A DNA stretch of 64,000 nt from Labia minor (lineage: Eukaryota > Arthropoda > Insecta > Dermaptera > Spongiphoridae). The stretch lies in the NCBI GenBank assembly GCA_963082975.1, contig OY720344.1, positions 88,040,107 to 88,104,106 of the forward strand. Direction: 5' to 3'. Below are positions 6,083-64,000 of the stretch, piece by piece. A program made the position numbers and the translations under genes. The notes below the pieces were generated by a model. It was given only the letters and a program-made list of their open reading frames with translations, was not told the origin of the DNA and made no database searches. How positions within the stretch are numbered: position 1 is the stretch's first letter; every line of letters starts with the position of its first letter.

Positions 6083-6964
6083 TGCACATTAATTGACTTG
6101 AACTATATTATAATAAATTCAACACACTTTTAAATCTCATATTTCTTATTGTAATAACAAATTTTCTTTTCCAACACTATTTCAGAAATAAATTACAGGG
6201 GCCGAAAAGTCCCGGGATTTTTCAATAGATGACGATACTAGAAAATGAACATGACTAATTTCGTGAGGCTCATCTGTCACTAGTTTATGTATGAAGTATC
6301 ATGGCATTTCGTTCATTCGTTTACAAGCTACAGTCGTTTGAGTGACACTACTTCCGCCTTCATATGAAAAATTGAAAAACAGGAATAGCGCTCCTTGATT
6401 AAACATTGTTTTTAATGGGAAAAACTTGTCAACAATCATTGTGGTGGTTGCAGGAATGTTATTCCACATCAGCTCCTTCGAGAACAACAGTTTATCAAGA
6501 CGTGATATTCCTGTTTTTTCATTTTTCTTATGAAGGCGAAAGTGGCGTCTTTCAAAACACTGTAGCTTGTAAACGAATGAACGAAATGCCATAATACTTC
6601 ATACATAAACTAGTGACAGATGAGCCTCTCGGAATTAGTCATGTTCATTTTCTAGTAGCGTCACCTATTGAAAAATCCCGGGACATTTCGGCCCATGTAA
6701 TTTATTTCTGAAATACTGTTGGAAAAGAAAATTTGTTAATACAATAAGAAATATTAGATTTAAAAAGTTTGTTGAATTTATTATAATATAGTTCAAGTCA
6801 ATTAATATGCAAAGTAGGGTCACCCAAACGACTGTAGCTTGTAAACTCATTGACGAAATGTCATGATACTTCATACATAAACTAGTGACAAATGAACCTA
6901 TCGAAATGTTAATTTTCTAGTGGCGACACCTATTGAAAAATCCAGGGACTTTTCAGTCCATGTA
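6083..6964. mobile_element. Large palindromic Tc1/mariner-type element with an extra end
   Basis: Seen: an inner element at 6196-6697 is flanked by TA and has ends CAGGGGCCGAAAAGTCCCG and the complement of CATGGGCCGAAATGTCCCG. Complementarity continues inward to about 6410/6495 and outward through 6083-6193 and 6700-6812, so roughly 700 bases form an almost continuous palindrome. A further direct copy of the right end follows at about 6831-6964. Open frames on both strands (6299-6594) are mirror images of the repeat. Superfamily is inferred from the TA flanks and end sequence. No transposase motif was seen. Confidence 0.7.
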
Positions 6965-8490: not shown

Positions 8491-9082
8491 ATATCTCGCC
8501 AGAGAAAGTATTTCGACTCGGAAATTTTCGATGTCGAGATTTTGATGTTTTTATACGTTTTGAAGATTCCTAAGTCATTTTCACTAGGTTTAAGAAAAAT
8601 GTCTGTATATATATATATATGTGTGTGTGTGCAGACAAGATTACGCAAAAACGCTTTGAGCTAAAATAATGAAATTTGGTAACAGGGCTTTATTCAAAAT
8701 TCGTAGTTTTTTTTCAACTTTTGAGAAATGTAGCTCAACCGGAAGAGGGTCATTACTTACCACGTTTTGATTTTTTTTCCTCTAAAGTGACCATAAAAAT
8801 AAAGATATATGTTTGATAGTTTTTCACATGATTAAAAATTGTATAAAACTGCTATATATAGAATTTCGGCTTGATTGAATTGCTGAAAGTACCGGAATTA
8901 ATTTTTTAACACGATTGCCAGCACGTAACGTGGTGCCATCAACAAAGAGCCAAACACGCGCTGGTTTAATATATATTTATTAATTTTAATTTATAATTTA
9001 TAATTAATTAAATTTAACTTAAATATAATATTTTTTAATTAATCCAATTCAAATTTGCAGATTGTCTAGTGGAGACACTATA
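8491..9082 (+). mobile_element. Family C dispersed repeat, copy 1
   Basis: Seen: about 590 bases shared with 37145, 44690 and 47160. Landmarks are ATATCTCGCCAGAG at the start, a short TA/TG microsatellite near 8608-8630, the block GAGAAATGTAGCTCAACCGG, and a terminal segment containing AGTGGAGACACT. In other copies the end reads GAGTGGAGACACTC, a perfect 5-bp stem with a GAGA loop. A 3' hairpin and a central microsatellite fit a rolling-circle (Helitron/Helentron) derivative, but the class is not proven. Confidence 0.65.
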
Positions 9083-17344: not shown

Positions 17345-19541
17345 ATATACTTACATTATAAAAAAATTATATAAAAAAAACTCAATTACTTTTATAAGTC
17401 AAATAGAGGGTTATAATCTCACCAAATTCATAAAAATTGATAATATATTATTTAAATTTCTAATGTAATAAATTTTAAACTGGGGCAAATTAAAAATTTC
17501 TTTCCAACACTAAAAAAGTGTTAATTATTAAAAAGTTTATGTGTGTGTGTATCATTTTCTTTTATTTTTATTTTTTGGAGATATAATGAGTTGATATTTC
17601 ATTCGATATAATTTATCGTTTAAATGAGGATTTATTCCCTTGATATCGTCTATATAGATATGTTTTTATGCTTGTGCGAGTTTTCTCTTTATTTATAATT
17701 TCGTCTTTTAATAAAATCCATGACATTAATTTATAAGATTGAAGTTAAATCATAGCCATTAATTTATTATTTCATAGAGTTCAATGACAGAAAGCTTATT
17801 TGGTTGATTTACTGCAATGTTGCTGTCTTCCTTTTTGGCAAGAAGGGGGGGGGGGAGGTCAGGGTAGATGAGGGGATGGGACTGCTTTTCAAGGAATTCG
17901 ACTTTGATCGAGTTGTGGGACGAGAGGCCCACTAAAAACGACGAGGGAATTGAAACACTACGAAAAATAACGATTGCCAAGTTCGTTTTTCACTTGCCAG
18001 CATTGACTTTTTGGAAACGAGTGAAGCCAAATGAATTCCTGAACTCACTTGCTTCACCTTCTCCTTCTCTATCCCGCTATCCTCTTACACCCTTACTTCT
18101 CATTCTGTCGAACTTCTCACTGCTTTTCACACTAAATCGTTCCCTAAACATAGAAGCAATGCTGCCATATCGTGAAACGAATCAGAGACAATTTCAATTT
18201 ATTTTTGAAAAAATAATATAACGCTTTACTTTTCAATTTAAATTAAAAAACATTATTTTATGCTTCAGTTAAAATGATTGTTTTGTGATTGTCACGAGTT
18301 TATTTATTTCAAATGTGAAAATTTGATCAAAATTTATTATAGTAAATATGTTTCTAAAGCTTAAACGAAAAGTTATGACATATAACAATGGACATTTAAA
18401 AGGCATTCTATGGGATCTGAAATTGTTTTTGATTAAGATAAATTTACGCAATTTAAATGGAAATTAAAATAAAATGATATTTGATTCGATTTTTGAAAAG
18501 CAATAAAAAATAATTTCAATTAAAGATCAATTGATAACAAATAATTATTGATTATTAATTAATTAACGATTATTTAACTAAAGGTGTAAGACAATCGAGA
18601 TATGTTAAAAATCGAAAGCCATAAAACAATGAGTTTGAATGTGAGGGATGGACAAGGGCTTTGAAATATGGGAATAAAATTCAAAATAAAATTTTTTCTT
18701 ATTTATGGACCAAGAAAATTCGAGGTTTTTGGGAAATAGTAGAGATTATATTACCAACAAAATTACATTTTATTTATAACATTTTTAATCATTGTTAAAT
18801 ATTATTTATTGTATAAATTAAATAGATTATTTTTAGTTAATGAATATTACAACTCATAAAAATAATAAATAATAAAAATTTCACGATTTGAAAGTCTGTA
18901 CCTCTACAAAGATGCTTCTATACTCCTTAGTTGGTTTTCTATGTTTATAAGAAAAATTAACAAAGATGTGGATTTAATTATACATCTGAACTCACAATAA
19001 TAATAATATTTACAAATTTGAATTCTATTATGAGAATAGTTTATTTAAAATCCAATTTTTATTAATCAGATTATTTTTCTAATCCGATACTATTGTAAAT
19101 GATGATTATGAATTAATATACTTAAGTAGTAGATTTAAATTAATAAATTATTAATATAATGATTGATTTTAAAAAAATAATTAAATAGGTAAAGGAATAT
19201 TTATTTGTTTCTTAATTATAATATATATATATATATAAATTTGTATATTGAATTAGAATTCCTAAACAATAAATAAAGCATTCTTTATTACGCCTTCATG
19301 TAATATTCTCCATTCTAATTTAGGTTAATTCATTAAAAATGTATGGATATGAAATTGCATTTACAATTCTACAGTTTAGATGCATTCCAGAGAAGATTGT
19401 ATTCCTAAAATAATATTACTAACAACTACTTTTGTTTACCCAATTTGATTTTATTATTATTATTATTATTAATATCCTATTTTTATTCTCATTATTAACA
19501 TAGTTTTATTGAAATTGATTATATTTATCTATTTCTTCCAG
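17345..19541. other. Upstream flank of the first firm exon
   Basis: Apart from the island and open frame at 17810-18221, the tract is A/T-rich with ATT microsatellite near 19451-19470. It presumably belongs to the preceding intron, because the exon at 19542 begins with an acceptor. No upstream coding exon was found. Confidence 0.4.
17868..18221 (+). other. 117-codon open frame in a GC-richer island, unassigned
   Basis: Seen: an ATG-initiated open frame of 117 codons about 1.3 kb upstream of the first firm exon, within a locally GC-richer island (about 17810-18185). The translation has no recognisable motif. The first half is charged and the second half Ser/Leu/Pro-rich, as expected from the pyrimidine-rich DNA. 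It is longer than chance frames elsewhere in this AT-rich DNA, but the base composition alone may explain that. It could be a 5' exon, a promoter-proximal element or non-coding conserved DNA. Confidence 0.2.
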
Positions 19542-19887
19542 GATTACAACGATGAAATCCGTCAAGAACAAATGTGGGAGATGCAAGTGTTGAACACTCA
19601 ACATTCTGTTGACGGCCTGGACCATGGTAGCGATCTCGGAGGTGGTGGGCCGGGCGGGGGCGGAGGTCCTTGCAGTGACAGTAGCAACGACGGTTCCGCC
19701 TCAACGCCACCCTCGTCCAACGCCTCTCAAATGCTCCACTCGTCGACACCTGGTTCTCCTCCACCCCCAGCTGCTCCACCAGGCGCTGCCGCTGCCGCCG
19801 CGGCAGCAGCTGCAGCTGCTGCAGCAGCATCTGCACCCCATCCCGCACTCCGAGATGCTGCCCAATCCCTTCTTGCTGGACCTCAAG
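19542..19887 (+). CDS. Internal coding exon of an unrecognised Gly/Ala/Pro-rich protein
   Basis: Seen: a GC-rich 346-base open frame in AT-rich DNA. It is bounded by a pyrimidine-rich acceptor ending in AG at 19540-19541 and a GT donor at 19888. It begins on a codon boundary and ends one base into a codon. The 115 residues start DYNDEIRQEQMWEMQ, which is charged and probably helical, followed by an acidic Ser/Gly stretch, a Gly run, a Ser/Pro segment, a Pro cluster and a run of 15 alanines. The alanines use all four GCN codons in mixed order, so the run is kept at protein level and is not a trinucleotide expansion. No catalytic motif, signal peptide or membrane segment is visible. The dangling G joins the next exon's GA to give a glycine codon. 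Inference: a regulatory protein, nuclear or RNA-binding. The family is not recognised. Upstream exons were not found. Confidence 0.85.
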
Positions 19888-19916
19888 GTAATCAACCAAA
19901 AACGATATGTTATATA

Positions 19917-21259
19917 GGGTGACCCAGCCAGTAGTTGAACAAATAAAGCCAGTTTACCACGGATCCTGTTGTAAGTTCTATACTATTAGCCGTAAAACTA
20001 AGCTAATGGATTTTTAACAAAGCTTTATTATTGTAGTTATTAAAAAAAATATTAAACAGTGCTTAACTGAAAAATAAAAAGCAAAAAAAAATTCACAACA
20101 TTTTTGATGATTTTATCCCAGTGGTTGAACAGACATGTCCAGTTTTTGAACGCTCGATATTCCAGTAATTGAACACCCGTTATTTCATAGTTTTTTTTTA
20201 TTTTAATTTTAGGTACACATCCAAAACGACTTAACAAATATCTAGGCCTATAGCTTGAACACTCATAACACAATACAAGGCTGATTCACATTCCAAACAT
20301 TGCTCAATGTTTAAATTATAATAATAATAATAACAATAATATATTTATTTATTTATATCAAACAAACACCAATCTGCAATATACATATAAGATACAAAAT
20401 TAAAAATATTTTTAAAATTTTTTAAACTTTTGATATGAAATTGCTTTGGAAGTCGAGTCCCGTTACTGCATACAGATTCCTGGTTTTACTTTACTTTACT
20501 TTAGGCAAGTCCGTTTGTCTTGAAAGTGTTGCTTGGATTGCACTAACATTCAATGCTGAAGGTGAGGCATCAAAATTATGATTAATTTCGGGCTCCTTTT
20601 CAATACACTCAGACAAAAGGCCATTTGTCTGAGTTTCATTAAGACATTTGCTCCGAAGCCTTTTCCAAAACTGAAACAGTTTACGGGCCTCAATATTACC
20701 CTCCCACTCTTCCCCTGCACTTTTCTGAATTCTTCAGACCTACCCTTGGGGGAGAGGGATTCAATGTATAAAAGGGATTGAACATTCACAGTCTGGTGAT
20801 CTTTGATGGCGGGCACCGTTCACCACTGTTCAAATACTGGAATTTGTGCATTTTAACAGTGCCATTAGTTGAACAGTCAGTTTAGAGCTCTAAAAAATAA
20901 AAAATATCTATACCTTAATATCATACTTCAAAATGTAGTCCTTTAGCTTTAATTTAAGACCAATTCGGTAAAAATATCTCTAAAAATGACTAGGATGCAC
21001 GTGGATTACTTTTACTTACCGTATTTTCAGTAGACTAGTCGTGAATGCAAAAACAAGCATTTCATTTGAGAAAAAAAATAATATCTCTGAGTACTTAAGT
21101 CACGTGCAGCAGACGATAGGTGTTTCAGTTGTGACAACATACTAACTTAAAAATAAAATAAAATTTCACGTTCCAAGCATGTTTCCTCTTGAGATTTTGG
21201 CGGATTTTTGGTAATTTGTTCAACTACTGGAAGGGGTTCAACTACTGGCTGGGTCACCC
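19917..21259. mobile_element. 1.34-kb Tc1/mariner-like miniature element beside a splice donor
   Basis: Seen: the left end GGGTGACCCAGCCAGTAG TTGAAC is the inverted copy of the right end (GTTCAACTACTGGCTGGGTCACCC), and TA lies on each side (19915-19916 and 21260-21261). Inside, the motif CCAGTxxTTGAAC recurs in both orientations near 20125, 20145, 20165, 20250, 20830, 20868 and 21220, so both subterminal zones are internally repetitive. Frames at 20550-20816 have no recognisable transposase motif. It sits in the intron, 29 bases after the exon end at 19887. TA flanks and inverted ends indicate the Tc1/mariner-like class; other TA-targeting superfamilies are possible. Confidence 0.75.
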
Positions 21260-23005: not shown

Positions 23006-25746
23006 ACTAGCTGCTCAGAGCGCCTTCGGCGCTCTTCACACCTAGACGGGGGCTCCGCCCCCTGTACCCCCGAGTTGTACATAGTATTTGGTGGTTGAAA
23101 GTATTAAAAGGTTTTCATCCATTTTGTTTCAATCAGTATATTACATAAAACATTCATTTCTTTTTGTGTTCTTATTTAAAAAATATATTTTAATTTAATC
23201 ACTATATTAATTATATATATTATTATTGTATATGTTATATCTATCTACCTATGTGGCTCAAAGATACTCTAAAGTTCTTAGCAGCAACAACCACATTTCT
23301 CCAAGTGTCCCTATCCTGAGCCCTTATTCCATCTCTCTTACGTCCCTTCCTACGCGTCATTGGTTTTCCAAGCGGACGTTTTCCAATCGGTCTTCCCACC
23401 AATATCTTTTTCCTCTCCCATTCTTGCCACGTGCCCTGCCTATCGCAGCTTTTTCCCTTTTATAACCCTAACTATTTCTGAAGATGCAGAGAGGCCATGC
23501 AATTTCTTGTTATACAGTCTCCCTCATACCCGGTGACCTCATCTTTCTTTGGCCAATAAATGCAGGGAAGAATCCTATTCTCAAATACTCTGAATCTACT
23601 CTCATCTCCAAGGGTCATAGACCATGCCTCCCACCCATATAATGCAACAGGCAAAATAATCTTTTTATATATTCCCTTTGATAATAATTTTGAAGAGATA
23701 AGCCTCTTTATTGCAGATAACAGGCGTTTCCCGATTGCAACCCCGATTTAAATTCTTCTCAAATATTATTATCCTTCGTGATTACATTCAATTTTTCTAC
23801 ATATTCAAATTCTACATTTTGTATCTTAAGATTTTGTATGTTAATACTCTTCCTCTTTGTTACTAAATATTTTTTCTTATCACTATTAATTTCAAACCTC
23901 CATTAAATTTTCCTCGCTATCTGTAATTGCAATTGCCGAATCTCCTATTATATTTAAGTCGTCTGAGTAACCTAATATTTTACAATTGATTTCCGCATCT
24001 TATTCTTTCTTTACTACCTTCAAGAGAAATTTGAAGATTGAAAATTTGAAAAAGTTTATCCGGATCTATTGAGTTATGCGTATGTTTTACTAAAGTCTAC
24101 AAATAATTAGTGAACAGAAATATTGAATTCGCGGTTTTGTTCCTAATATCTGTCATAATGAAAATATCTTAATTAATGTTGGTCGATTTGGCCTGAACCC
24201 GCAATGATATCTCCTAATATTTCCTCCGCCTATAGTTTATAAGTATTGTATATGTTATAATAGAGTATAATATTTCTTGATCATTACATTTTGGTATTTT
24301 ATTTTCATTGCTAGATTATTATTGAATATTTTTAATTATAATGAAACTTGAGAAAATGCAAAAATAGAGACTTGAGACAATTTATAAAAATTAACGGTAT
24401 AAAACTATAGATAAATGACCAATATATACATTCATTAATAGTATTAATTTAAATTAATTGATTTATTTGTTTTTTTTATTATTAAGTTCATTTATTAATT
24501 TTTCTAGATTTTAGTTAATTTCCTCCCTTAAAAGAAACTTATCTAATTCTGTGGTGCTAGGGGATTTGTAAATTATTCTTTGTAATATGAAGATTTCGCT
24601 TACAGTTTCTGTCATGTCTGACCTCCATCCAACAGTTATTTTTCTCAAGTTTCTTGCTTCTCTTAATCATGTGATCTATATATTTAATTTTTTTTGATTC
24701 ATTATAATAAAATTTAAACAAATAAAAATTTTTACTTTGTTAATTTATATAAATTTCAATATAAACTGATTGTGAGTGATACGCTTAGCCAATACTCTGA
24801 ATATTTTGTGTACAAAAATATTGAATGTTCTTAGCGAGATTTGATATAATGTTGTACGATTTGTCCTAAATCTGAATTAGAAGAAAATTATAAATTGCAT
24901 TAAAATGAGACCTTTTAGAATAAATTATTTAATTGAAATGATATTTAAATATAATAATTTAAAAAAATATTATATTCTTTGTTTGGCAATTGTTATTTAA
25001 TTATGTGCAACATGATTCGACTTGCACAGAGCATCGTTATTTTTTATTAATATCACATAATAAAAATGAATCTTTTAAACATAATAAATAAAAAAGACAT
25101 TTTAATAAATTTAAAAAATATACCCAATTTAAAAATGTCAAAAATTTAAAACAACTTTATATCATCATATTTTAATTTTTATATAATATATATATATTTA
25201 GTAATTAATAATAGAGTAATTAAATTAAAATAAAAAACAAAGATAATATAATTCAGTCATTTTAATTCAGGTTAAATAATATTTTTTTTTATTATTCAAT
25301 GATAAAATTTATATATTATTATATATATATTATAGAAAAGAAGAAATATTCAATTAAATAAAAAATAATTTAAGATAAAAATATGATCTAATAAATATTT
25401 TAATTAAATTGAGAACTTTTAGAATAAATTATTTAATTGAATTGATATTTGTATATTAGAATTTAAAATAAAAAGGGAAATATTATAATAATTCTTCGAT
25501 TGGGAATCTCTATGATAATTCATTGTTTGAAATGATTCCGCTAGGCCGACAGTGAGCCGCGAGCTGCTCTTGAATGAACAACACGGAGAATTATATAAAC
25601 TTTAAAAAATTAATTTCTGCGGTTATTGATAAGATATTAATAAAATTTATAGCCTATGTTACTCTAGAGGTATATAAGAATATTGTGATGTAATTTCAAA
25701 GAAATCGGTTCAGCCAATTCTGAGTCTATAAAATAGTAATTTTCCG

Positions 25747-25793
<47 letters not shown>

Positions 25794-25897
25794 GTGAAAA
25801 ATTCTAAAGTCACTTTTGGATTCTAGAGGTCATGAAACGCGAAAATTTTTAAATTCTGAGCAATGTGCAGACAAAAACCTTTTTTTATATATATAGA
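23006..25897 (-). mobile_element. Non-autonomous Helitron, about 2.9 kb, carrying LINE RT sequence
   Basis: Seen on the minus strand: it starts at 25897 with TCTATATATATA preceded by A, and ends at 23006 with the hairpin GAGCGCCGAAGGCGCTC, a 7-base spacer TGAGCAG and CTAGT followed by T. These are the hallmarks of canonical Helitrons, which insert between A and T without duplicating the target. A (GTCT)n microsatellite lies at 25747-25794. Toward the 3' end it carries a decayed LINE RT fragment (23240-24005) in the same orientation, including GYSDDLNIIGDSAIAITD, the YxDD active-site motif. No Rep-helicase is encoded. Pairing of this 5' end with this 3' end is inferred from orientation and flanks. 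Confidence 0.7.
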
Positions 25898-26260: not shown

Positions 26261-27395
26261 ACTAGCTGCTCAGAGCGCCTTCGGCGCTCTTCACACCTAG
26301 ACGGGGGCTCCCCCCCTCGACCCCCGAGTGGTACATAGTATTTGGTTGAAAGTAGTAAAAGGTTTTCATCCATTTTGTTTCAATCAGTATATTACATAAA
26401 ACATTCATTTCTTTTTGTGTTCTTATTTAATTAGTTGTTTTGGACAAAAAAATTCAATTTTTCTAACTAATTTTATAATACATAGAAATTGTTTGTTATT
26501 TTAATATTCTATTTATCTTATCTTATTATGCTAGTTAAAATTGTATGTTTGTATAGCCATGTGTTCTCAAAAACCGCTCTAACGATTTTTTTGAAATTCA
26601 CACTAGATATAGTATTTATAAAGAAAAATTAAGTTTTATTGATCACATCACTGGAAAAATACATCTTCCTTAGTTTTTTCTTAATTTAAATTTATATATG
26701 GATGACGTCACAAATGACATCCATATTGAAATTTGACTCCCGCTATTTTTTAAAGGATATTGTTTTAATATTTTTTTTATATATTTAAAATATTTTAAAA
26801 TTTTTTATTTAATTTCGAAATAAAATTAAAAATATATATATATATATATACGATATATATTTATCATTCTTCCAATAAAAAAAAATATTCATGCACTTAG
26901 AAACATACCTAATAACCCCAAGTTCCATTCATTTTAATCAGATTGATGCAATGATGCAACATTTAATAATTGTAATAAATAATTAAAGAATTGTATATCA
27001 GCTCGGTGTCTCAAGTATTAATATTACCAGCCAAACCCAATAATAATGAATTATTTTTTTTAACTTAATTACCGAGCCGAGGCTCGGGGTCCCGGTACTA
27101 TATTTTTATTTAATCTATACAACTTTTAAAATGTAAATATTGAATAGTATTATTAATAGAAAAAAATTTACTTTGTTTTATTAATATTCTGACCAAAATT
27201 GAAATTTAATGTTTGTCTAAAATGAGTAAGAAAAAATTATTTTTTCACTTTTCTCAAAAAGTATTTATTGTTTTTCAATGAATTTCCCGCTACTAATAGA
27301 TTAGCCCGAGGGCTATCAAATGGCATTGGAATGGCCCAAATCGCATAAGTCGTTTAGGAGGAATATGTGATAGAACTGTCTTTTAAATATATAGA
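26261..27395 (-). mobile_element. Non-autonomous Helitron, 1.1 kb
   Basis: Seen: the 3' end at 26261 has the same hairpin and CTAGT as 23006 and shares about 180 bases with it. The 5' end at 27395 reads TCTATATATTTAAAAGACAG after A. The interior carries GGATGACGTCACAAATGACATCC-type text near 26700, split by no coding frame, and a second GC palindrome CCGAGCCGAGGCTCGG at 27071-27086. The palindrome may mark the end of a smaller element (about 27065-27395) embedded in or fused to the larger one. Located in the intron. Confidence 0.6.
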
Positions 27396-35870: not shown

Positions 35871-36517
35871 AAGTTGACCTGTGGCCAGGTCCGAACCGAC
35901 CGACGGTTTGAAGTAAATTAATTTCCAGCTCCAGAAAAAATTTCAAATAATTTTAATATATCTATTAATGTAATAAAAAGCAGATATGGATAGAACATAA
36001 ATATTTTTAATTTTATTTTATTTATAATATATAGCTGATGTAGCCGGCGTTGCCCGTGATCATAATAAGGAGGCTCTGACGTCATGAATGGCTGGATGAC
36101 GTCATATAATTTTAAATTAAATAAAAACTAATAAAGATGATTTTTCTCGAGGATAAAACCAATACAAAGTGCATGATACGTGGTCATATGTAAAAAATCT
36201 CCTCATGTGAAATTTGGTGTGAAAATAACCCTTCCCTTCCTATCGTCGATCGCTTATACTACCACTTCCGGTTTCCGGATTTGCACCAAAAGTTGATAAA
36301 TTCATCGTACTAATGCATTAAGTAAATATACCAAATTTCATCAAATCCGTTGAGCCGTTCAAGCTGTACACATCTATACGGACGGACGGACGGACAGACA
36401 TCATGCTAAAAATACTTTTTTCTGTTAAGAAAATGCATGATTCGTGGAGATATGTAAAAATCTCCACATGTGAAATTTGGTTTAAAAACAATACCTCCAT
36501 TACTATCGTCGGTCGGT
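35871..36517 (-). mobile_element. Family B repeat, copy 3 (reverse)
   Basis: A full-length minus-strand copy running from AAGTTGACCTGTGGCC at its low end to the complement of ACCGACCGACG at its high end. It carries the GGACGGACGGAC microsatellite near 36379-36396 and the paired TGACGTCA palindromes near 36079-36105. A 71-codon minus frame inside is repeat sequence, not a gene. Confidence 0.75.
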
Positions 36518-37144: not shown

Positions 37145-37260
37145 ACATATTTCGCCAGATAGTATTGCGATCATGAAAATTTTCGACTTCGAGATTTTGA
37201 TGTTTTTATACGTTTTGAAGGTCCCTGAGTCATTTTCACTAAGGTTGAGAAAAATGTCAG

Positions 37261-37294
<34 letters not shown>

Positions 37295-37681
37295 TATGTA
37301 TGTCTGTCTGTCTGTGTGTGTGTGTGTCTGTGTGGCTGTGTGTGTGTAAACAAGATTACGCAAAAACGGTTTGAGCTAGAATAATGAAATTTGGTATACG
37401 GGCATTATTCAAAATTCGTAGTTTTCTATCAACTTTTGAGAAATGTAGCTCATCCGAAAGTGGGTCATTGCCTACAACGTTTTCATTTTTTTTCCTCTAA
37501 ACTGACCGTAAAAATAAAGATTTATGTTTGATAGTTTTTCCCATGATTAAAAATTGTATAAAACTGCTATATATAGAGCTTGATTGAATCGATGAAAGTA
37601 CCGGAATTAATTTTTTAACACCGCAAACAAAATTAATTAATTAATTAATTTTAATTTTTAATTTATAATTAATTAAATTTA
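37145..37681 (+). mobile_element. Family C repeat, copy 2, left part
   Basis: Matches 8491 onward, with an expanded TC/TG microsatellite at about 37260-37348 (source of several spurious open frames). It is interrupted at 37681 by a Helitron; its terminal segment resumes at 39073 and ends near 39138 with GTGGAGACACTCCAG. Joining 37681 to 39073 restores the sequence of the uninterrupted copies. Confidence 0.75.
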
Positions 37682-39072
37682 ACTAGCTGCTCCGAGCGCC
37701 TTCGGCGCTCTTCACACCTAGACGGGGGCTCCGCCCCCTGTACCCCCGAGTGATACATAGTATTTGGTTGAAAGTCTGTTTGTAAAAGATTTTCATCCAT
37801 TTTGTTTCAATTAGTATAAGTAGATAAGTCATGTATTTGTTTTCTTGTAAAATATATCTAATCCAAAACATACCTGTTAAAAAGGAGGCCAAGTTCCTAT
37901 CGGTTATTTGTTTGCCTAAAAAGGGTTCAAATCCATCCCAATGCCAAGTTTAGATGCACTTGTTTGTTAATTATCATCCCATGTCCCTTCCTTCATTGTC
38001 CACCCACCTTGGTCCTTGGTCTTCCACCGGATGTTTCCCAATCGGTTTCTCCCAATTTCTAGTTTCTCCAATTCCAACCATGTCCCCTTCCCATCCCAGC
38101 CTTCTTGATTTTATAACCTTAACTATATCTGGACATTATATCTCGTTATGCCATCTCCGCCATCCCCCTGTGACCTCATCTTCTTTTGGCCTATAAATGC
38201 TGCGAACAATATTAATCTCACAAATACTCCAAATCGTCTCCCAGAGTCATCGATAGGGTGACCAAACGTCCCGTCTTTAGGTGCTCTGTCCCAAAAAAGT
38301 CTTCGGGACACCCTACTGTTTTTTCAATATTTAGGACATTTCGTAATTTTTTTTTCAAAATTTTTTCAATTTAGTTCTAAAAAAAAGGTATACCGTTTGT
38401 CCCGGTTTGGTGTTTTCGAAATATGGTCACCCTAGTCATCGATCAACATGAAAAATAATTGTTTTATATATTTTAATTTTGATCCTCTTTGATGAGATAA
38501 GCCCCTTTAATGCATAATAACAGGCGTTACTCAATTACAACGTCGATTTAAATTCTTCTCGAATATTATTATCCTTCGTGATTAGAGATCTTAAGTATTT
38601 AAATATTTATACTTTTTCAAATTCTACATTTTGTATGTTAATTGTATGTAAGTCGTATCCGTATCATAATTCTTGAATTTTTTTGTTTAATTACATTTCG
38701 GTTGATTTTTCCCCAATTTCTCTAATCACATGTCTCCTCTTCCAGTCCAATTCATTTACCTGGCTTAAGAAATTTTTTAAAATTTTAAATAGAGGGAGAG
38801 AGAGAGGTTCTAATTATATATATATATCTGTTTCTATGACAACAAAAAAGTAAACAAATTACATACATACAAATACTCTCCTTTATATATATTTCTGGAA
38901 AATGGAACACCCGCAGCTCAGCTCAGGAGTTACCTAAGATTCTAATTTCTTTTTTATTTTTCATCATTTGAGGTACCCTTCACCTCAGAAAAATTTGGTT
39001 ACCTTACTCCTTGTAGTTTAGGCTCTGGAGTTTTTTGCGTACAGACGGACACTATCGTATTAAATATATAGA
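37682..39072 (-). mobile_element. Non-autonomous Helitron, 1,391 bp, boundaries proven by nested insertion
   Basis: Seen: on the minus strand it begins TCTATATATTTAATACG at 39072 and ends with the hairpin (here GAGCGCCGAAGGCGCTC followed by GGAGCAG) and CTAGT at 37682. The flanks are A (37681) and T (39073) and belong to one family C repeat; removing the element rejoins that repeat as AAATTTAATTTAAATAT, identical to the copies at 44690 and 47160. Inside are a second 5'-end-like sequence near 38893, a LINE RT fragment (about 37954-38640) and a hAT-type element (38254-38434) that splits the RT fragment. Confidence 0.85.
38254..38434. mobile_element. hAT-type miniature element with perfect 8-bp duplication
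   Basis: Seen: the ends TAGGGTGACCAAACGTCCC and, inverted, TAGGGTGACCATATTTCGA. Identical 8-bp flanks GTCATCGA occur at 38246-38253 and 38435-38442. It interrupts LINE RT coding remnants inside the Helitron at 37682-39072, so it is the youngest layer of a three-level nest (family C repeat, Helitron with LINE piece, this element). 181 bases, non-coding. Confidence 0.88.
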
Positions 39073-39138
39073 TTTAAATATAATATATGTTATTTATCCA
39101 ATTCATATTCCGAGATAGTCAAGTGGAGACACTCCAGT
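39073..39138 (+). mobile_element. Family C repeat, copy 2, right part
   Basis: Continuation of the copy that begins at 37145, displaced by the 1,391-base Helitron at 37682-39072. It contains the terminal hairpin segment AAGTGGAGACACTCC. The first bases TTTAAATATAA continue the AAATTTAA at 37674-37681, as in the intact copies near 44750 and 47225. Confidence 0.75.
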
Positions 39139-42806: not shown

Positions 42807-43598
42807 TCTATATATATAAAGGAGAGTGTTTGTATGTATGTATGTATGTAATTTGTTTACTTTTTTGCTGTCTCCTGACAGGAGGAAAAATTAATCGAGG
42901 TAGGAAAAGAGATGAGGTTTGAAATTAATAATGATAAATAAATATATTTAGAAACAAACAGGAGCAGTATTAACATACAAAATGTAGAATTTGAATATGT
43001 AGAAAAATTGAATGTAATCACGAAGGATAATAATATTTGAGAAGAATTTAAATCGAAGTTGCAATCGGGAAACGCCTGTTATCATGCAGTAAAGAGGCTT
43101 ATCTTATCAAAATTATTATAAAAGGGAATGAAAATTAAAATATATAAAACAATTATTTTGTCTGTTGTATTATATGGGTGTGAGACATGGTCTATGATCT
43201 TAGGAGATGAGAGTGGATTCGGAGTATTTGATAATAGGATTCTTCCCAGCATTTATGGGCCAAAGATGAGGACACCAGGGAATGACGTAAGAAAGATGGA
43301 ACAGAGGCTCAGGATAAAGACACTTGGAGAAATGTGGTTGTAGCTGACAAGAACTTTCGAGTAGATAGATATAACATATTCAATAAAAATATATATAATT
43401 AATTTACTGATTAAATTAAAATATATTTTAAATAATCACACAATAAGAAATGAATGTTTTATGTTATACATTGATTGAAACAAAATGGATGAAAACCTTT
43501 TACTACTTTCAACCAAATACTATGTACCACTCGGGGGTACAGGGGGCGGAGCCCCTGTCTAGATGTGAAGAGCGACGAAGGAGCTCTGAGCAGCTAGT
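42807..43598 (+). mobile_element. Non-autonomous Helitron, 792 bp, with LINE RT tail
   Basis: Seen: the 5' end TCTATATATATAAAGGAGAG follows A at 42806, and the 3' end CTAGT at 43594-43598 is followed by T. The 3' hairpin is decayed (GAGCGACGAAGGAGCTC) compared with the perfect 17-base version elsewhere. A (TATG)n run lies just inside the 5' end. LINE RT C-terminal sequence (42883-43372) includes KIYKTIILSVVLYGCETWSM and is oriented with the Helitron. The open frame at 43128-43343 is part of this remnant. Confidence 0.8.
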
Positions 43599-44689
43599 TA
43601 TAAATAAAATTGTATTAGTTTTTTTAAATATAATTAATAAATGGATTAATTAACTTAATTTAATCTTTATTTATTTGTTTCCATTTCTTTTTTTTATGTT
43701 CGTTTTGTATTATAAAAATTTAACTCATTTATTAACGAAAAATTATTTTCAATTAACTTAATTTGGTCCTCCACATCTTATATTAATCTTTGATCAATGT
43801 AAATTTGTCCAACTTTTTATTTATTTTGTTGTTTATTTTTCTTCCAGCCCTTTTAATTAATTTAAAATTATATACATTACTTTATTGACTTTGTTTTAGT
43901 TGAGAAAAGTTATAAAATTTTAATTTTTCTAATATTTCTATGTCATCTTTTTTATTATATTTTTTTAAATTGAACTATAAGTTTAATAAGAGTTAATTTA
44001 CTTTGAAATCTTTCATTTTTTTATTTCAAAATTAAACATTAATATAAAATATACTTTACTTGTATTATGGGTTTAATTAGGACTTTATAGTTGGATAAAA
44101 TATATTTTATATATTATATGCATTCATTAAATTATTTCAACATTCCTCTCTGAATGATATATTAATATATTAATATCTACCTTTATATTGTATTATTACT
44201 ATTATTAATAACTACTTATACACAATACTATATATAAATCATATATTTATTAATTAATTTTAATAACTTTGATGACAGTTTTATCAAGGTTGTTTCATTT
44301 GTTTATAATATTCAAAACTTTGTTAATCAATTTTTATGTGTGAAATGACACTCAAGTGTTTCATGATGTCAGAAATTCTTATATCATTTCAGTAAAATAT
44401 TAAAATTGACATTTGACAGTTGAAGAGAGATTGCGCCTCGGGAAAAATATTGAGCAAAATGTGATTACTTGCATAACTACAAGGGAAATATTATGTGATG
44501 TGAGAAAAAAAAATGTAAATAAAATTTTAATGTAAAAGCAATATATATCTGGGAATTATAATTGTAATTTAATAATTATATAAGAACATTAGAGACTTAT
44601 TTACAGGTATATATTTTATTAAAAAAATTAAAACTAAAATATTTTTTTAAATTAACCGTGAAATATCCTGTTTTAAATGAAAATAAACT
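43599..44689. other. AT-rich non-coding tract
   Basis: No gene, no recognised repeat. A slightly GC-richer patch near 44400-44490 is unassigned. Confidence 0.5.
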
Positions 44690-45195
44690 GGAGTGTCTCC
44701 ACTCGACTTTCTCGCAAATTTGAATTGGATTAATTAACAAATATATTATATTTAAATTAAATTTAATTAATTAAATTATAAATGAAAATTAATAAATAAT
44801 ATTTATTAAACCAGCGCGTCACGTGCTGGCGTGTGATTTGCAGTCGTGTTAAAAAATTAATTCCGGTACTTACAGCTATTCAATCAAGCTGAAATTCTAT
44901 ATATAGCAGTTTTATACAATTTTTAATCATGTGAAAAACTATTAAACATATATCTTTATTTTTACGTGGTAGGTCCTCATGGTCCACTTCCGAATGAGCT
45001 ACATTTCTAAAAAGTTGATAGAAAACTACGAATTTTGAATAATGCCCGTGTACCAAATTTCAACCATTTTTGCGTAATCTTGACTACATACTCACAGAGA
45101 CATTTTTCTCAACCTTACAAGTGAAAATGACCCAGGAACCTTCAAAACTTATAAAAACATTAAAATCTCGACATCAAAAATTTTCGTGGCGAGAT
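44690..45195 (-). mobile_element. Family C repeat, copy 3 (reverse)
   Basis: Minus-strand copy beginning with GAGTGTCTCCACTC (hairpin end) and finishing near the GGCGAGATA block at 45195. Compared with copy 4 it lacks the block around GGGTCAGTTTAGAGG and the GATGGGACCACG segment, so it has small internal deletions. Together with copy 4 it gives the uninterrupted reference for the Helitron insertion at 37682. Confidence 0.7.
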
Positions 45196-46982: not shown

Positions 46983-47159
46983 TTTAGCACGTGTTCAAAA
47001 ATGAAAGTTCTCGCTTTCGCACCCTTATATACATAAAAAATGTATTTTTTAGGATTATATATTACAATATAGTAATTGTAAATAAAAGTTATATATATAT
47101 TTAATATAATATATTATATATTAAAAAAAAAATATAAAGTTTACTAAATAAAAAAAAAT

Positions 47160-47708
47160 CTGGAGTGTCTCCACTCGACATACTCGCAAATTTGAATTGG
47201 ATTAATTAACAAATATATTATATTTAAATTAAATTTAATTAATTAAATTATAATTTAAAATTAATAAATATATATTAAACCAGAGCGTGTTTGAACTTTG
47301 TTGATGGGACCACGTCACGTGCTGGCGTGTGATTTGCAGTCGTGTTAAAAAATTAATTCCGGTATTTACAGCTATTCAATCAAGCTGAAATTCTATATAT
47401 AGCAGTTTTATACAATTTTTAATCATGTGAAAAACTATCAAACATATATCTTTATTTTTAGGGTCAGTTTAGAGGAAAAAAATCAAAACGTGGTAGGTCC
47501 TTATGGTCCACTTCCGAATGAGCTACATTTCTCAAAAGTTGATAGAAAACTACGAATTTTGAATAATGCCCATGTACCAAATTTCATTATCCTAGCTCAA
47601 ACAGTTTTTGTGTAATCTTGTCTACATACACACATATACACACAGACATTTTTCTCAACCTTACAATTAGTGAAAATGACTCAGGGACCTTTAAAACATA
47701 TAAAAACT
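47160..47708 (-). mobile_element. Family C repeat, copy 4 (reverse)
   Basis: Minus-strand copy beginning CTGGAGTGTCTCCACTC. It lies about 2.5 kb from copy 3 in the same orientation. It breaks off near 47708 before reaching the CTCGCCAGAG end, so it is truncated there. The 62-codon plus frame starting 47427 lies wholly inside the repeat and is not a gene. Confidence 0.7.
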
Positions 47709-63281: not shown

Positions 63282-63352
<71 letters not shown>

Positions 63353-64000
63353 CGGAAAATTACTATTTTATAGACTCAGAATTGGCTGAACCGATTTCTT
63401 TGAAATTACATCACAATATTCTTATATACCCCTAGAGTAACATAGGCTATAAATTTTATTTATATGTCAACAATAACCGCAGAAATTAATTTTTTAAAGT
63501 TTATATAATTCTCCGTGTTGTTCATTCAAGAGCAGCTCGCGGCTCACTGTCGGCCTAGCGGAATCATTTCAAACAATGAATTATCATAGAGATTCCTAAT
63601 CGAAGAATTATTATAATATTTCCCTTTTTAATTTAAATTCTAATATACAAATATCAATTCAATTAAATAATTTATTCTAAAAGTTCTCAATTTAATTAAA
63701 ATATTTATTAGATCATATTTTTATCTTAAATTATTTTTTATTTAATTGAATATTTCTTCTTTTCTATAATATATATATAATAATATATAAATTTTATCAT
63801 TGAATAATAAAAAAAAATATTATTTAACCTGAATTAAAATGACTGAATTATATTATCTTTGTTTTTTATTTTAATTTAATTACTCTATTATTAATTAACT
63901 ATATATATATATATATATTATATAAAAATTAAAATATGATGATATAAAGTTGTTTTAAATTTTTGACATTTTTAAATTGGGTATATTTTTTAAATTTATT
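63168..64000 (+). mobile_element. Helitron 5' portion, continues beyond the window
   Basis: It begins TCTATATATATA after A, then TTTTTGTCTGCACATTGC, a (GTCT)n array at about 63283-63352 (longer than in the related copy) and a GC-rich block near 63525-63560. The whole 830 bases is a near match to the 5' 800 bases of the minus-strand element starting at 25897, including its AT-rich parts, so the two are recent relatives. The 3' end is outside the window. Confidence 0.7.

Follow-up and report, generated by a model that had tools for sequence, protein, structure and literature searches.

The 1390-bp element that interrupts a family C repeat in the window (the whole 64,000-nt stretch of Labia minor DNA analysed, with a G+C content of 26%) is best explained, taken as a whole, as a recently moved non-autonomous canonical Helitron with T-guided targeting and a replaced 5' end (probability about 0.93). 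In the source genome (604 Mb in 71 contigs), 38 of 38 full copies have the form A/TC...CTAG/T, where slashes mark the junctions with the target. The 5' TC and 3' CTRR ends, insertion between A and T with no target duplication, and a hairpin 11 nt before the 3' end (~10-15 nt in canonical Helitrons) place the element in this class. The first-pass annotation had proposed A/T insertion without duplication from the window and had assigned the 5' end and the hairpin-CTAGT 3' end to one unit; both proposals are borne out, since the two ends bound all 38 full copies, and in none of these was inner sequence seen to run on past either end. Its interpretation, canonical Helitron ends included, is supported. 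Features are listed in Table 1.

Table 1. Coordinates of the Helitron, its host repeats and related features in the window
Feature	Position	Strand	Basis or remark
Non-autonomous Helitron, 1390 bp	37683..39072	-	TC at 39072 to CTAG at 37683; family C rejoined exactly, and 38 full genome copies
T of A/T target, adjoining CTAG	37682..37682	-	A on + strand
A of A/T target, immediately ahead of TC	39073..39073	-	T on + strand
Interrupted family C repeat, left part	37145..37682	+	Sequence comparison
Interrupted family C repeat, right part	39073..39138	+	Sequence comparison
Family C copy	44680..45188	-	Empty site 44756/44757
Family C copy	47152..47707	-	Empty site 47228/47229
Family C copy	8491..9079	+	Empty site 9017/9018, junction with one mismatch
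Present left terminal sequence (LTS), 180 bp	38893..39072	-	Less diverse than interior
Dead ancestral 5' end within element, TC lost	38829..38892	-	Aligns with 5' ends at 42807 and L081
3' terminal hairpin GAGCGCCGAAGGCGCTC	37694..37710	-	7-bp stem, 11 nt ahead of end
Second GC-rich hairpin GGGGGCGGAGCCCCC	37724..37738	-	Sequence
Decayed fragment, presumably of a non-LTR reverse transcriptase	37988..38642	-	BLAST pieces; split by MITE-like insert
MITE-like insert in that fragment	38255..38433	.	Ends AGGGTGACCA/TGGTCACCCT
Related Helitron, ancestral-type 5' end, same 3' end	42807..43597	+	Sequence comparison
Related Helitron, same 3' end	26262..27395	-	Probable 5' end TCTATATATTTAAAAGACAG
Related Helitron, same 3' end	23007..25897	-	5' end candidate only
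Empty family D hot-spot site	35958..35959	+	Sequence comparison
Empty family D hot-spot sites	4692/4693 and 31432/31433	-	Sequence comparison

Excision of 37683-39072 gives AAATTTAATTTAAATAT and restores an unbroken family C repeat. As had been reported for the copies near 44750 and 47225, this 17-mer occurs exactly at 44748-44764 and 47220-47236 (minus strand); at 9010-9026 it has the single mismatch noted earlier, the target base having changed in that 8.5 kb copy. The first-pass annotation had removed 37682-39072 and held both ends to be fixed to the base. Cut pairs over 37672-37693 x 39062-39083 were scored against the three window family C copies, and 37683-39072 scored highest (121), followed by 37685-39074 and 37682-39071 (120 each); the pair 37682-39072 scored 111. 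The exact rejoining and the right bound therefore hold, the left bound moves by one base to 37683, and apart from that base the original observation is confirmed. The near ties arise because the AT-rich ends permit sliding, and it is TC and CTAG that decide.

In all three family C copies the alignment crosses the junction for ~77 bp and, with 200-bp flanks, extends over 289 to 333 columns (E 1e-60 to 1e-69). When 1390-bp segments were excised at random from the window and their 60-bp flanks compared without a low-complexity filter, 59 of 500 excisions likewise produced a match across the junction at E<=1e-5. Because such matches are this frequent in an AT-rich window, AAATTTAATTTAAATAT alone is no proof of an empty site, and the window's empty site, though real, is weaker proof than had been claimed. 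The two-sided alignment is far stronger than the 17-mer, and the other genome copies are decisive.

Three genome searches provided these copies. With the whole element as query, 59 matches were listed, and scoring covered the best 40 of 3697 candidates; the LTS search (5' 180 bp) scored the best 40 of 1056 first-look candidates, and the RTS-likeness search the best 40 of 531. Since only the best 40 were taken each time, the samples lean to close relatives. In the first sample, L002-L008 were the same places as L009-L015 and were dropped; L030 (3' end missing), L047 (5' end missing) and one of two L046 copies lie outside the 38. These 38 elements fill 39 rows, as L020 is counted twice owing to a tandem 5' piece. 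The second sample was chosen for an identical LTS on one contig, and 3' ends were found for 22 of its 28 members (15/20 by fixed-distance fetch, 7/8 by reading 2.5 kb). The third was chosen for RTS likeness. All further 5' junctions follow A (28/28, second sample) and all further 3' junctions precede T (22/22 and 29/29, second and third samples). Viral contigs had no match to either end pattern.

Flanks of the 38 full copies differ, save where copies share a repeat family. In 10 of the 38, the two flanks, once joined, align through the junction with an uninterrupted stretch of the window (L001, which is 37683-39072 itself, L012, L023, L024, L027, L032, L039, L040, L045 and L046). The alignments of L040 and L046 have small gaps a few bases from the junction and no added base at it, and L024, aligned with three D copies, passes cleanly through the junction in one. 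Strong junction-spanning window matches were found for 3 of 22 second-sample copies (L095, L096 and L098) and weak ones for L083 and L106. Nothing is shared across the junction in 27 of 38 rows; in the other 11, 2 to 13 nt are shared (2 nt in six, 3 in two, 5 in two and 13 in one, L025, within an ATT-rich run), which looks like chance in AT-rich flanks. As a separate observation, a 260-bp 5' piece of the element lies head to tail directly ahead of the full copy at L020, an arrangement that a backward jump of the replicating strand would give.

The copies fall into two subfamilies, with 26 and 12 members, and most of what separates these is one internal block. From the majority sequence of its subfamily a copy diverges on average by 0.8% and 1.1%, respectively, and copies this nearly identical (~1% divergence) point to a young, recently moved family. 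Where the two subfamilies can be aligned, they differ by 0.9% in the LTS, 2.3% in the interior and 2.0% in the RTS; the overall figure of 6.8% counts the replaced block of ~120-150 bp. Diversity within the larger subfamily is lowest in the LTS (0.008), against 0.0165 in the interior and 0.012 in the RTS, and all 40 scored LTS matches are identical over 180 bp. The interior carries what we take to be a non-LTR reverse-transcriptase fragment, also found at other window places: IYKTIILPVVLYGCEAWSM and RLRWAGHVARMGE occur in a related place at 14.0-14.5 kb, and similar words at 33.1-33.6 kb. The MITE-like insert within this fragment is flanked by 10-bp direct repeats AGTCATCGAT at 38245 and 38434.

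Element positions 181 to ~244 match the 5' ends of the related copy at 42807 and of a damaged RepHel locus (L081). The live form of this end starts TCTATATATATAAAG; in the element it reads GAAATATATATAAAG in 39 of 39 rows (38 elements), 36 of them identical across the 26 nt compared. TC has been lost here, and therefore the present 5' end lies ~180 bp outside the older one. We infer an order of events in which the upstream TCTATATAT would have taken over from the mutated older 5' end ~180 bp inside. That the older 5' end persists, dead, within the element indicates that a Helitron family can acquire a new left end and stay mobile; a literature search on shifted Helitron 5' ends returned nothing relevant.

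The new end may have been acquired by nesting: the ancestor would have landed within another Helitron, and a later move would have started at the outer 5' end and stopped at the ancestor's own 3' end. The outer 180 bp are less diverse than the interior, as expected of a working LTS, and other Helitrons in the window share this 3' end but differ in their 5' ends. Against this, all 8 loci with the LTS that were followed up have the interior of the Helitron family (three with extra inserts, one with no 3' end found), and no donor family bearing the present LTS was found. Nesting is thus a tentative proposal, rated somewhat below even odds, and chance use of an upstream TC is an alternative to it.

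Some copies occupy the same base of another repeat, family D, which has a HINE-like (Helentron-derived) structure. Its 11-bp subTIRs, ACCGACCGACG and CGTCGGTCGGT, are exact in D31 and D36 and have one change on each side in D4. The palindrome GACCTGGCCACAGGTC (one change in D31) lies near the 3' end, T runs flank the ends, and a GTCC microsatellite array is present in D31 and, in shorter form, in D4 and D36; these are the features of HINEs. The 3' subTIR lies 27 nt from the assigned 3' end, against ~38-60 nt in mite HINEs (PMC4067079). D4 lengths were left out of use as an earlier occurrence of AACTTATT was matched there. Family C has a terminal hairpin, a script found no 9-bp inverted repeat between its ends, and it is unclassified.

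A single base of family D carries 5 of the 38 first-sample copies, all oriented alike relative to D, and likewise L095, the one second-sample copy (of 22 with 3' ends) at this site. In addition, L030, which has lost its 3' end, has the 5' flank of the D-site copies, and L088 is inserted 2 bp from the base; the third sample contributed 0 of 29. In total, 6 of 89 read 3' junctions lie at this base against about 0.015 expected, a figure that assumes 28,000 D copies (three in the window, scaled up) and would be lower still with the 2056 first-look candidates.

Could one old insertion have been copied along with family D? The shared base and orientation are what such an origin would give, tree counts leave gains and losses indistinguishable, and copies lying in D may have been the source of those found elsewhere. 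On the Helitron tree, however, separating the five D-site copies from the other 33 takes 5 changes; well-supported branches force 4 of these, and a single D-site clade is rejected (AU p 1e-6). A common clade for the filled copies is likewise rejected by the host tree, at p 0.011 over all 9 rows and 0.006 when L012 and L032, which are long, unsure rows, are taken out, although few of its branches are well supported and those that are require just 1 or 2 changes. L027 groups with the empty D copy at 4.6 kb (support 97/98; 90/96 and 84/96), and the outer flanks of the D-site copies differ. One old insertion is therefore improbable. From these comparisons, repeated insertion at one D base would be the simplest reading, with parent copies within D possible. 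Further re-used sites are suggested by the flank pairs L033/L143, L118/L130 and L112/L086, and four first-sample insertions in family C lie within 14 bp of each other (47215-47228, C47 coordinates).

Target choice beyond A/T is revealed by the 3' flanks. In 34 flanks (one of the five D-site copies retained), compared with the 17,290 A/T sites of the window, T was present at +8 in 32 (p 8e-11) and at +7 in 29 (p 1e-6), this being the discovery sample; the 5' flanks showed nothing comparable. T at +8 recurred in 21 of 22 flanks of the second sample (8.9 expected) and 26 of 29 of the third (12.7 expected), so that 2/34, 1/22 and 3/29 copies have another base there. A weight matrix built from the first 28 flanks (leaving out five D, four C, L024 and the second L020 row) gave an AUC of 0.82 and 0.90 on the two later sets. 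The statistics show that 3' bases help to determine site choice, T at +7 and above all at +8.

That this signal is a mere effect of AT-richness or of A/T context is very improbable. The first 10 nt of the 3' side are indeed 96% AT, against 81% at window A/T sites, but TT at +7/+8 was observed in 24/28, 15/22 and 22/29 flanks against AT-matched expectations of 6.3, 4.3 and 6.4. Moreover, positions +2 to +6 and +9 to +11 are weaker, and the 5' side is without a comparable signal.

Other sources of specificity were considered and set aside. Hairpins spanning the target site were in no excess over permuted flanks or A/T sites. When the 3' flank was compared with the 5' end of the element itself, a 3-nt-shifted match reached z 6.9, and other shifts were also raised, up to 4.6; the resemblance seems to reduce to a TTAAT-like core and is not claimed. 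The +7/+8 motif was rejected as the cause of the D hot spot, since it places that site only at the 67th-85th percentile of A/T sites, and a motif-driven hot spot is also countered by the 0 of 29 in the third sample. Three of the four family C insertions are likewise ranked only at the 47th-82nd percentile.

It is somewhat favoured that the transposase reads its target ~6-11 nt past the nick, on the 3' side, and that some repeats, above all a HINE, present one base which is hit repeatedly, one rolling-circle family thereby preying site-specifically on another. A preference at a fixed 3' distance, together with a re-used base, offers a concrete handle on how RepHel proteins pick targets. As a Helitron the element is ordinary; its positioned target preference and the re-used HINE-like base are worth specialist attention.

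Helitron-like elements in Lepidoptera reportedly disrupt (GAAA)n microsatellites, going by the title of Coates et al. 2010. That family, as far as the title describes it, likewise has a recurring target context, which is a microsatellite, where the present element re-uses a fixed position in a dispersed repeat. In the relevant passages of the papers compared, Helitrons are said to target A/T in AT-rich DNA: Helraiser uses A/T targets, its AT-rich preference being most marked on the 3' side (PMC4778049), Xuan-Feng Helitrons of wheat prefer A/T (PMC13286980), and a silkworm survey describes an AT preference with no distinct within-chromosome bias for most Helitrons (PMC3789558). The listed titles and abstract openings, and the passages cited, yielded no single-base Helitron hot spot or positioned target motif. 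As this comparison covered text, and insertion logos are published as figures, the novelty of the T+8 rule is provisional.

The bat elements Helraiser and Helibat1 share with the present element TC/CTAG ends, A/T insertion, a 3' hairpin and the lack of duplication (PMC4778049, PMC5876387). Unlike them, it is non-autonomous, has T at +7/+8 and re-uses a repeat base, although the Helraiser logo may show something similar to its target preference. Xuan-Feng Helitrons, as portrayed in the sections compared, are also non-autonomous, moved by a RepHel relative and A/T-preferring; their activity was shown by experiment, whereas that of the present element is inferred from near-identical copies (PMC13286980). 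HINEs, described as having subTIRs, a palindrome near one end and T-rich (T-T) flanks, and the DINE-1 Helentron derivatives match host family D, not the element (PMC4067079). That the element is itself a Helentron or HINE, which like canonical Helitrons are rolling-circle elements with a 3' hairpin, is hardly credible, since it has TC/CTAG ends and A/T rather than T-T targets (38/38) where HINEs have subTIRs and T-T flanks (PMC4067079).

Going by known Helitrons, an unlinked RepHel protein would nick ahead of TC and peel off one strand, stopping past the hairpin and CTAG, and the freed strand would be joined into an A/T site; the protein would presumably contact the target strand around +7/+8. 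RepHel genes are abundant in the genome, which has 104 Helitron_like_N matches, and one frame of 1652 aa includes a 1288-aa stretch matching Helitron_like_N and PIF1. A RepHel gene with both the LTS and the RTS of the element was not found at 30 Rep loci within +/-1.5 kb or at two within 7-10 kb, and by eye none of the listed LTS- or RTS-search places is near a Rep match. One damaged RepHel locus (L070/L081) has a related 5' end, of the ancestral type. The 10.5 kb read for the 1652-aa RepHel element contained no hairpin-CTRR terminus.

Seven RepHel loci (L054-L060) have the same Helitron_like_N score (195.7 bits), and their open frames are 1651-1652 aa in six cases and 1537 aa in one; this uniformity suggests recent spread of an autonomous element. 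At G000:C5:46739897-46792979, Helitron_like_N matches are spaced 9817, 9817, 5689 and 5687 bp apart, in what looks like a RepHel segment repeated in tandem.

Elsewhere in the window, 25202-25793 and 63306-63897 are inverted 592-nt copies, 99% alike and 37.5 kb apart. At 6128-6765, two 283-nt arms, 90% alike, lie inverted on either side of a 72-nt spacer and form a fold-back structure. The open frame at 19473-19922, with no Pfam match, has glycine-, serine- and alanine-rich runs and is perhaps an exon.
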